Origin: a virus
Direction: 5' to 3' (one strand)
DNA: 20,411 bases
Virus record (IMG/VR): IMGVR_UViG_3300037141_000074
Location: 1-20,411 of that record
Shown here: piece after piece, positions 12,559 through 14,242 of the stretch
Position numbering within the stretch: position 1 is the first letter of the stretch
How the letters are laid out: each line of letters opens with the position of its first letter
Translations under genes and position numbers: made by a program
Notes under the pieces: generated by a model
Told to the model about the DNA's origin: nothing
Databases searched by the model: none
What the model saw: the letters and a program-made list of their open reading frames with translations, nothing else

Positions 12559-12564
12559 CCTCCT
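12559..12564 (-). promoter_or_regulatory. Strong Shine-Dalgarno site for the connector gene
   Basis: AGGAGG lies 4 nt ahead of the ATG at 12554 and overlaps the TAG stop of the glycosyltransferase gene. Unlike most genes here, which rely on stop/start overlap, the connector therefore has its own full-strength site. This is consistent with a seam where an accessory cassette was inserted upstream. Confidence 0.8.
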
Positions 12565-13282
12565 AGTGTTTCACGTGGAACGGTCGATAGTTTTCCACGT
12601 CGGGGCCGATCAGAGACTCGAGGAACTTGAGCGACGGGTCGGGCGTGTAGCCGACGACGTTTCTCCATCCCGCGCTCAACCCGACCCTTCCCGGTAAACC
12701 TTTGATCCCGACGACGCTGCCGAGATTGTTCCAGAGCTTTTTAGTGCCGGCGAATTCATGCCACAGCCGCAAGTCCACAAAAAAACCCGTACCACCAGAG
12801 CAAATCCTTTTCAGCAGAGGAAACACGGCTTGCGTTATTCCGGTCTGACATAGCGAACTGTGAGGATGGGCTGCGCCCATCGTTCGGTGACACTGTTTTC
12901 CCACGTGGTAGTAAACGATTCCCTGAAACCCGAACAGCTCGTGAGCCTTCAATCCGTCGTTGACCATTGCAATGTGATCGCAGCTGTACCAGTCGTCATC
13001 CTCGACAAAAGCCACGCGATCGTTCGACACGTGATCGAGCGCCGTCAGCAGATTGACGGGCAGCGTGTGGGCCGGATCGCTGCGCGCTGGAAGCCTGCGT
13101 ATGATCTGGACGTCAGCGATCCCGCAATACTGTTGCAATCGTTCGCGCTCATGGCTTAAGGGCGCTTTGCCGTCGTCGACGATGACCCACTGGTCGGGTT
13201 TACGCTTCTGCCGCGACATATATTCGACGCAGAGGCCGAAAGGGATCGGCCGGTCGCCGGTGCATGTGACGGCAGTGATCAC
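12563..13282 (-). CDS. GT-A type glycosyltransferase
   Basis: The 239-residue protein has a GT-A (family 2-like) nucleotide-sugar fold: the first strand MITAVTCTGDR, the acidic turn QWVIVDDG (Asp36-Asp37), and the metal-binding DxD-like motif AFVEDDDWY (residues 91-99). The SGGTGFFVDLRLW segment near 162-174 resembles the acceptor-side region of these enzymes. No membrane segment is present, so it should act in the cytosol, probably on a phage or host protein or on a soluble glycan. Start GTG 13282 overlaps the TGA of the small membrane peptide gene. It follows the ASGPSL enzyme and comes before the connector, in an insert within the head genes. Target and sugar are unknown; virion glycosylation is inferred. 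Confidence 0.82.
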   Translation of the reverse strand: MITAVTCTGDRPIPFGLCVEYMSRQKRKPDQWVIVDDGKAPLSHERERLQQYCGIADVQIIRRLPARSDPAHTLPVNLLTALDHVSNDRVAFVEDDDWYSCDHIAMVNDGLKAHELFGFQGIVYYHVGKQCHRTMGAAHPHSSLCQTGITQAVFPLLKRICSGGTGFFVDLRLWHEFAGTKKLWNNLGSVVGIKGLPGRVGLSAGWRNVVGYTPDPSLKFLESLIGPDVENYRPFHVKH

Positions 13283-13386
13283 GGCGGTCCAGCGAGCGCG
13301 CTGCGAATGACGTTGGTCGCAAAAATGAACAGCGTCACCGCGCCGCCGGCGAGCACCGTTCCGAGTAGCAGCATGGCGACGCGCAT
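13279..13386 (-). CDS. 35-residue single-pass membrane peptide
   Basis: The frame from ATG 13386 gives MRVAMLLLGTVLAGGAVTLF followed by IFATNVIRSALAGPP. It is one hydrophobic helix of about 22 residues with a basic N-terminus and a short tail. The ATG overlaps the TGA of the ASGPSL enzyme (ATGA), and its own TGA overlaps the GTG of the glycosyltransferase (GTGA). Removing it would leave a gap of over 100 nt in a tightly packed block. A GAGG lies about 10 nt upstream. A longer frame through 13560 exists but runs across the enzyme gene and lacks coding character. The function is unknown; it might anchor the two enzymes at the membrane. Confidence 0.55.
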   Translation of the reverse strand: MRVAMLLLGTVLAGGAVTLFIFATNVIRSALAGPP

Positions 13387-14054
13387 CACAGACAGTCCTC
13401 GATCGCCTTGCGCTCGAAACAAGCGATCGCTGTGCGCCGGCTGCAGTTGATGACCTCGACGCCGGCGGCCTTCAAATCCGTGGCGAGCCCATTCATGGCC
13501 GCGACCCAGCTCGGATACGATCCGCCGTTGCCGAGGCCTCTGGGATGATCCCCGTGCCAATGGGTGCGCGTGCCGTCGCGCGAGAAGTCGAACCCTAAGA
13601 GCAGGATTCGCGCGGCGCCGAACAGATGCGCGAGCCCGATCGCCTGATAGCCGGAATTTTTCCCCTGGTGAATGACGGTCGGATCGTTCGACAGGCCGCC
13701 TTTATCCTGGCCGAAAATCCAGTACAGGTCGAAGCGATCGCGGGCGCGCGCGTTCACGGTCCATTTCTCGCCGTGGAAGTTGCGCGAGACTTCGGGGAAG
13801 TAGGCCATCCACCATGTTTCGTCACACGCATAGAGCACGTCCGCCCACAGCGCGCGCCGAAAGCTCGTGTTGACGGCTATCGTTTTGCATTTGCCTTGGA
13901 CGTGGGCGCAGTCGGCTTCCGTAAGGCTTGGCCCACTCGCGATAATACAGACGGTTTCTCCGCGCCATCGGCCTCCAGGTCCGCCGATGTGTGGGACGCG
14001 AGCGAGTCCGCCGTGATGCCGCGCGACGCCGGCGGCGGCGCCGGTTGCGGATCT
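13386..14054 (-). CDS. ASGPSL-motif enzyme (DUF115/MptE-like), start not canonical
   Basis: The core is a Rossmann-like domain with GETVCIIASGPSL (near 13958-13920), AVNTSFRRALWADVLYACD, TWWMAYFPEV, and a C-terminal ARILLLGFDFSRDGTRTHWHGDHP. These features match the DUF115/MptE-like group common in phages, whose glycine-rich loop resembles GT42 sialyltransferases. The enzyme probably handles a nucleotide-activated substrate, but the reaction is unknown. The only standard start is GTG 13838, which would delete the ASGPSL loop and the first strands. The frame is open upstream to 14130 without ATG, GTG or TTG. I end the feature at 14054, where a -1 shift from the upstream gene would enter; the resulting fusion would have about 285 residues. 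An indel or rare ATT start (13944-13946) are alternatives. It ends at TGA 13386-13388. Confidence 0.75.
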   Translation of the reverse strand, partial: RSATGAAAGVARHHGGLARVPHIGGPGGRWRGETVCIIASGPSLTEADCAHVQGKCKTIAVNTSFRRALWADVLYACDETWWMAYFPEVSRNFHGEKWTVNARARDRFDLYWIFGQDKGGLSNDPTVIHQGKNSGYQAIGLAHLFGAARILLLGFDFSRDGTRTHWHGDHPRGLGNGGSYPSWVAAMNGLATDLKAAGVEVINCSRRTAIACFERKAIEDCL

Positions 14055-14242
14055 TTTCCCAAGGGTGCGCCGTCGAAGGACTGCACGCGCTCCGGCTCTG
14101 GACCTTCCGACAGAATCACGATCAGGCCCTTACTGCGCAGCGCATTCGCATAGGCCTTGTCCGCGCTAAAGCGGGTGCCTGCGCGCATATAGCAGCTGAG
14201 CTGCTCGCTGTGAAATGTTTTGATCGCTTTGCACTGTGGCAT
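13877..14242 (-). CDS. Small head-region protein with a disordered tail
   Basis: The 121-residue product begins MPQCKAIKTFHSEQLSCYMR, then AGTRFSADKAYANALRSKGL. This compact N-terminal domain of about 50 residues resembles small phage proteins that often follow the capsid gene, with the pattern of a strand, a turn with PG/AGT, and a helix ending before a G-hydrophobic strand. From residue 55 on it is Pro/Ala/Ser-rich and likely disordered (PAPPPASRG, basic end KPTAPTSKANAKR). ATG 14242 has AGGAG 6 nt upstream. It contains GGGAAAA at codons 61-63, and its last 80 nt overlap the ASGPSL enzyme in another frame. Function is not recognised. Confidence 0.75.
   Translation of the reverse strand: MPQCKAIKTFHSEQLSCYMRAGTRFSADKAYANALRSKGLIVILSEGPEPERVQSFDGAPLGKDPQPAPPPASRGITADSLASHTSADLEADGAEKPSVLSRVGQALRKPTAPTSKANAKR
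14029..14060 (-). promoter_or_regulatory. Candidate -1 frameshift signal joining two genes
   Basis: The upstream gene reads TTG GGA AAA GAT, so G GGA AAA (14060 to 14054) is a slippery heptamer in correct phase. After a 9-nt spacer there is a perfect 6-bp hairpin: CCGGCG at 14044-14039, loop CCGC, CGCCGG at 14034-14029. A -1 slip leads without a stop into the ASGPSL enzyme frame. GC-only hairpins are common in DNA of this composition, so the stem is weak evidence on its own. Confidence 0.45.

Follow-up and report, generated by a model that had tools for sequence, protein, structure and literature searches.

How does a phage make an enzyme whose catalytic loop is encoded upstream of the only standard start codon in its reading frame? 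This question is raised by the window, i.e., the whole stretch of 20,411 nucleotides analyzed here, which is a single metagenome virus record (IMG/VR IMGVR_UViG_3300037141_000074). Genes for terminase, portal, protease and major capsid protein lie on its minus strand and are followed by a small gene and the enzyme frame; past the enzyme stop, the same strand continues with a very short ORF, a glycosyltransferase-2-like gene and a head-tail adaptor. The gene pair thus lies between the capsid gene, which it follows directly, and the head-tail adaptor. The features needed below are:

15770-14409, minus strand: capsid gene, a separate ORF.
13877-14242, minus strand: gene for a small protein of 121 aa, read in frame 0 (ORF call), immediately 3' of the major capsid gene.
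14054-14060, minus strand: slippery heptamer G_GGA_AAA, the predicted -1 shift site (exact phase and conservation in the clade).
14024-14044, minus strand: possible stimulatory hairpin 3' of the heptamer, which it follows by about 9 nt (in the MFE structure).
13974-14053, minus strand: -1-frame linker (about RSATGAAAGVARHHGGLARVPHIGGPG), overlapping the frame-0 tail of the small gene.
13386-13973, minus strand: enzyme domain, -1 frame, with GRW, ASGPSL loop, NSG and HWHGDHP motifs and a sialyltransferase-like Rossmann fold.
13926-13937, minus strand: SGPS catalytic-loop codons, 5' of the sole standard start (G14 and S16 invariant in the enzyme alignment).
13836-13838, minus strand: GTG, earliest standard start codon in frame with the enzyme, discounted as the place where a working enzyme begins.
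12563-13282, minus strand: downstream glycosyltransferase-2-like gene (Pfam Glycos_transf_2, E 2e-4, narrowly under the cut-off), likely the enzyme's partner in a sugar-modification cassette.

A 35-aa ORF at 13279-13386 includes a hydrophobic stretch (MRVAMLLLGTVLAGGAVTLFIF...); its overlap with the enzyme stop reads TGATG, and it had no match in family searches.

No stop interrupts the enzyme frame between the TAA at 14132-14130 and the stop codon at 13388-13386, and the first ATG, GTG or TTG in this frame is the GTG at 13838, 99 nt downstream of the ASGPSL loop (the S of SGPS lies at 13937). Initiation at this GTG was rejected, as it would cost 45 residues including the loop and the invariant Asn35; G14, S16 and N35 are all missing from the resulting product, and in the AlphaFold model both the first strand and the loop are encoded upstream of it. 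The small gene (14242-13877), which is preceded by the SD AGGAGAG, carries G GGA AAA at 14060-14054 in exact shift phase, and this is the only in-phase X_XXY_YYZ heptamer of the window's overlap. The frame-0 product is a protein of 121 aa (12.8 kDa), and a -1 slip at the heptamer gives a stop-free fusion of 285 aa (31.0 kDa). The overlap is thus open in both frames with a slippery site in exact phase, which satisfies one criterion of programmed -1 frameshifting.

Most of what a first-pass annotation, made without database searches, had claimed for this locus was borne out: the loop encoded before the only standard start, GTG 13838 (coordinates confirmed), the lack of ATG, GTG or TTG in that frame back to the stop at 14130, the exact slippery phase at 14054-14060 and the stop-free entry of a -1 slip into the enzyme frame. 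The 6-bp hairpin described 9 nt further on was confirmed only in part, as it exists but is not significant in the window itself. The accompanying caution, that frame 0 still looks coding past the site, needs correction: such a look is to be expected, since ribosomes that do not shift continue in frame 0 as far as 13877.

Relatives were sought in IMG/VR, GTDB genomes and GenBank phages, and 265 loci with a usable enzyme were collapsed at 85% nucleotide identity to 97. Of these 97 nonredundant loci, 56 have no ATG, GTG or TTG ahead of the loop in the enzyme frame. Every one of the 56 has the enzyme in frame -1 relative to an upstream ORF of the same small-protein family that extends beyond the loop; eight further loci combine this layout with an incidental upstream start. 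A +1 shift can be set aside, since in 56/56 startless loci the partner ORF passing the loop is the one requiring -1; two loci considered as +1 shifts at a TAA (L032 and L066) each have their own GTG or TTG. The isolates Pseudomonas phage D3, PMG1, Psp6 and the Tetraselmis-associated S20 share the layout, and the same -1 arrangement occurs in a Lysobacter spongiae genome, with no more relatives among 369 genomes of its class. Relatives that follow other genes initiate at an ATG or GTG of their own. Homologues of this kind, with an ATG, had been named in advance as the refuting case; they exist, but downstream of other genes, and for this reason they do not refute the shift. The alignment of relatives, proposed at the same time as a test, gave both frames open and a slippery site at the matching place, which favours a programmed shift. 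As to public records, the annotated start of D3 orf7 (L079, AF165214.2, 3088-3546) falls after the catalytic loop, and the deposited starts of Psp6_00048 and S20 TVGG_00049 likewise cut the loop off.

The phase of the slippery sites across relatives is strongly biased. Among X_XXY_YYZ heptamers in startless overlaps, 45 of 55 are in the shift phase and 3 and 7 in the other phases (p=2e-13); with one locus per 50% amino-acid identity cluster, the distribution is 14:1:2 (p=5e-5). An in-phase heptamer is present at 34/56 startless loci vs. 15 +/- 2.9 in synonymous-codon shuffles, where the maximum among 300 shuffles was 23 loci. Most, indeed nearly all, of the loci without a heptamer have an in-phase C_CCU or C_CCC, and the Pro codon at this place has T or C as its third base in 38/49 cases, vs. 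233/685 in these ORFs overall. Such C_CCY tetramers are shift-prone in Escherichia coli (Sharma et al., PMC4066793), in which the best heptamers are CCCAAAG, GGGAAAG and AAAAAAG, and V_VVA_AAR, with GGGAAAA included, forms an efficient class (PMC4066793). The open -1 window often starts 0-2 codons ahead of the site. Two startless, overlapping loci (L143 and L149) have no in-phase canonical heptamer or shift-prone tetramer of the kinds tested, and L006 has weak candidate sites at best. Within the window's clade, GGGAAAA is found at one conserved place in L005, L011, L012, L013, L014, L016, L017, L018 and L020; in L002, L003 and L015 that place holds AAAAAAC instead. Second in-phase heptamers lie nearer the enzyme (-45 to -60) in L005, L012-L014, L016 and L020, and the slip point is therefore less certain in this clade than in D3.

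In D3-like prophages CCCAAAG is kept in 67/67 sequences (45 distinct haplotypes). Variable sites favour frame-0 third positions before CCCAAAG (41/80) and -1-frame third positions after it (25/45), the change in -1 third positions at the site being significant (p=7e-5). For the window's clade, four independent pairs yielded only 15 differences in the linker past GGGAAAA, 9 of them at -1 third positions, and 28/39 differences at -1 third positions in the enzyme part. A further criterion of programmed frameshifting, that the site and both products be conserved and that variation by codon position switch at the site, is thus satisfied.

The upstream partner is predicted to consist of an N-terminal beta-beta-beta-beta-alpha-beta domain of ~45 residues and a Pro-rich tail. 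A profile of this domain matches 64/64 overlap-type loci; as an overlapping neighbour it matches 0/29 own-start loci, some of which have short upstream sequence. Relatives of the domain match phrog_2616/phrog_7993, of unknown function. Natural in-frame fusions of the small domain with the enzyme occur in L260 (E 1.5e-12), which is placed among the frameshift-type loci in the tree, and also in L027 and L029; in L089 the domain is in frame with the enzyme, as judged by eye only. The suggestion that an enzyme is tethered to a small head-region protein by a frameshift fusion is supported, by inference from sequence alone. Kinship with Bacillus subtilis YqbF, the top match of the fold search, is not claimed, the match being weak (E 0.058, prob 1.00), nor is kinship with lambda gpFI (profile match E 0.54).

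Evidence for a stimulatory structure is uneven, being clear in the relatives whose site is close to the enzyme (proximal-site relatives) and not significant in the window. Pairing between the GRW codons (GGCCGCTGGCG) and the ASGP codons (CGCCAGCGGCC) in proximal-site relatives can form an 11-bp hairpin that begins a few nt past the site and is present in many relatives. Since RNAalifold retained only 6 pairs in the proximal alignment, the 11 pairs were assessed by counting: 87% of cells are paired vs. 23-58% in slid controls (34 sequences). Covariation is modest (6 double changes vs. 2.3 expected from shuffles). The mean z is -2.0 in the hairpin group vs. a weaker -0.42 in homologues with their own start, a comparison group that encodes similar residues at this stretch. 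The window's own hairpin, in a GC-rich stretch, is not stronger than in shuffled sequence (z = -0.5; +0.8 for a 60-nt window). At the corresponding place, stems form in the homologous loci L012 (z -4.3) and L014 (z -1.8), and the 13 hairpins folded from the wider clade are mixed (z from +0.5 to -3.2).

The enzyme itself matches phrog_4603, labelled alpha-2,3-sialyltransferase (E 9e-51, over positions 1-173 of the 178 in the profile), and its family includes P1 PmgO and D3 orf7. Structures were predicted after exclusion of alignment rows from public phage records; the AlphaFold model of the enzyme has a pLDDT of 96, and its top Foldseek matches are human sialyltransferases with probabilities of 0.94-0.97 but E values of only 0.004-0.007. 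Profile search gave a weak match to a Cst-II-type sialyltransferase (E 0.0065). The larger enzyme alignment has eight invariant columns, including G14, S16 and N35. We thus describe the enzyme as sialyltransferase-like by predicted fold and by inference from sequence; there are no data on donor, acceptor or activity. Genes for sugar or methyl transferases adjoin it in the window, D3, Psp6 and S20. Near the enzyme, S20 has a GT-D glycosyltransferase (L084 3776-4426) and D3 a Methyltransf_23 gene (L079 5663-6280), and these neighbours suggest that the head region holds a sugar-modification cassette of variable content. Beside P1 PmgO, PmgP (pmgP, L081 3001-3627) has a weak MptE-like match (E 3e-4) and might be a second, paralogous enzyme.

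We consider it very likely (probability about 0.9) that programmed -1 ribosomal frameshifting makes a fusion of the small protein and the enzyme. The missing start, the phase and its conservation, the frame-specific selection in relatives and the natural in-frame fusions are present in the sequences themselves; that the shift occurs, and how often, is inferred, in the absence of protein or reporter data. Confidence is very high, again by inference, that frameshifting occurs in the family, and its placement at GGGAAAA in this window is a likely one. Under the proposed mechanism, most ribosomes would stay in frame 0 along the small gene (14242-13877) and give the 121-aa protein, and a fraction would move back one base on G_GGA_AAA (14060-14054), traverse a short, basic linker in frame -1 and produce the 285-aa protein with the small domain and the complete sialyltransferase-like enzyme. 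Through the small domain, enzyme copies in limited number may be brought to the head or virion as it assembles; there the enzyme, together with the downstream transferases, would modify a sugar target. Action at the head or virion is inferred from the position of the small gene next to the capsid gene and from two own-start relatives, PAJU2 ORF010 and vB_KvM-Eowyn LLCLJKAH_00005, which their depositors labelled 'structural protein'.

Of the alternatives, the one that survives best is that the family shifts but the window's clade slips nearer the enzyme than GGGAAAA. The second heptamers of several clade members speak for it; the window, however, has GGGAAAA alone in phase, and its place is conserved in the clade or taken by AAAAAAC, making this alternative unlikely. 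Much weaker is the possibility that the enzyme starts, without any shift, at a non-standard ATT, ATC or CTG inside the small gene. The window does have ATC and ATT in the enzyme frame just ahead of the loop, but 41/56 startless loci lack even near-cognate starts, 52/56 lack one having an SD-like sequence, and the in-phase slippery sites and in-frame fusions would be left unexplained. Transcriptional slippage, in which realignment of RNA polymerase would shift the frame, is also very improbable: A6-A7 or T6 runs occur in a few relatives (L022, L048, L102 and L083), but most sites are short runs (e.g., GGGAAAA, CCCAAAG, C_CCU), and the conserved ribosomal reading phase is not required by polymerase slippage. 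Finally, a 1-nt assembly or sequencing indel that splits one continuous gene or two normal genes, conceivable for a single metagenome record in which frame 0 still looks coding past the site, is all but excluded, and for the family is excluded, because the -1 relation recurs in the 56 nonredundant startless loci, in the D3, PMG1, Psp6 and S20 isolates, in 67/67 D3-like prophages and in Lysobacter spongiae.

With programmed ribosomal frameshifting as the preferred reading, a bolder version can be formulated, which we rate as slightly less likely than not: that this is a widespread, unrecognised frameshift system of tailed phages, which would place a few sialyltransferase-like enzymes on the head or virion via the small protein, the catalytic-loop codons in many relatives doubling as an arm of a shift-promoting hairpin. 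If frameshifting is confirmed, the phage frameshifts known so far, mainly those of tail chaperones and capsid or tail-shaft extensions, would gain another conserved class. The predicted system is present in phage D3 and can be tested directly there, the public annotations of D3 orf7 and of the Psp6 and S20 homologues, which begin past the catalytic loop, are corrected, and the question arises whether these phages carry a sugar-transferring enzyme on their heads and what its target would be.

Our search of the literature, mostly without subscription journals, found no description of this small-gene/enzyme frameshift, in agreement with the earlier statement that frameshift control of this enzyme type is not known to have been described. 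Frameshifting as an event is already known, and what is likely new is the gene pair and the enzyme fusion. P1 PmgO, PAJU2 ORF010 and vB_KvM-Eowyn LLCLJKAH_00005 belong to the same enzyme family but have their own ATG and do not overlap the small gene; P1 pmgO is nonessential by CRISPRi (PMC10695390). Campylobacter Cst-II and the GT42 sialyltransferases resemble the window enzyme in their N-terminal GPSL loop and through the weak profile match (E 0.0065) but are distant from it. In retroviral Gag-Pol (PMC5009743), a frameshift likewise ties an enzyme to a structural protein in limited copies that can be packaged, but the proteins are unrelated, and there is no evidence for packaging or cleavage in the phage system. 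The lambda G/G-T tail assembly chaperone (Xu, Hendrix and Duda 2004, cited in PMC10885494) also uses a -1 heptamer slip near the end of a small gene to make a minor, C-terminally extended protein, and is conserved across phages though its sequence varies (PMC10885494); its slippery heptamer is GGGAAAG. That the present fusion resembles G/G-T and is made in a minor fraction of copies, as first suggested, remains an inference, and the gene pair does not meet the G/G-T criterion of lying between the major tail and tape measure genes: G/G-T is a tail-region system with an assembly-domain extension, whereas here a catalytic domain is added in the head region. The frameshifts of T7/T3 gene 10A/10B and of a head protein of Lactobacillus phage A2 (PMC5009743) are similar in that a -1 frameshift in a head gene yields a minor extended virion protein, but there the major capsid protein is extended by an Ig-like or short domain; here the capsid gene is not itself extended, so that the 10B-type criterion is unmet, and it is a separate small protein encoded after the capsid gene that would be extended, and by an enzyme.
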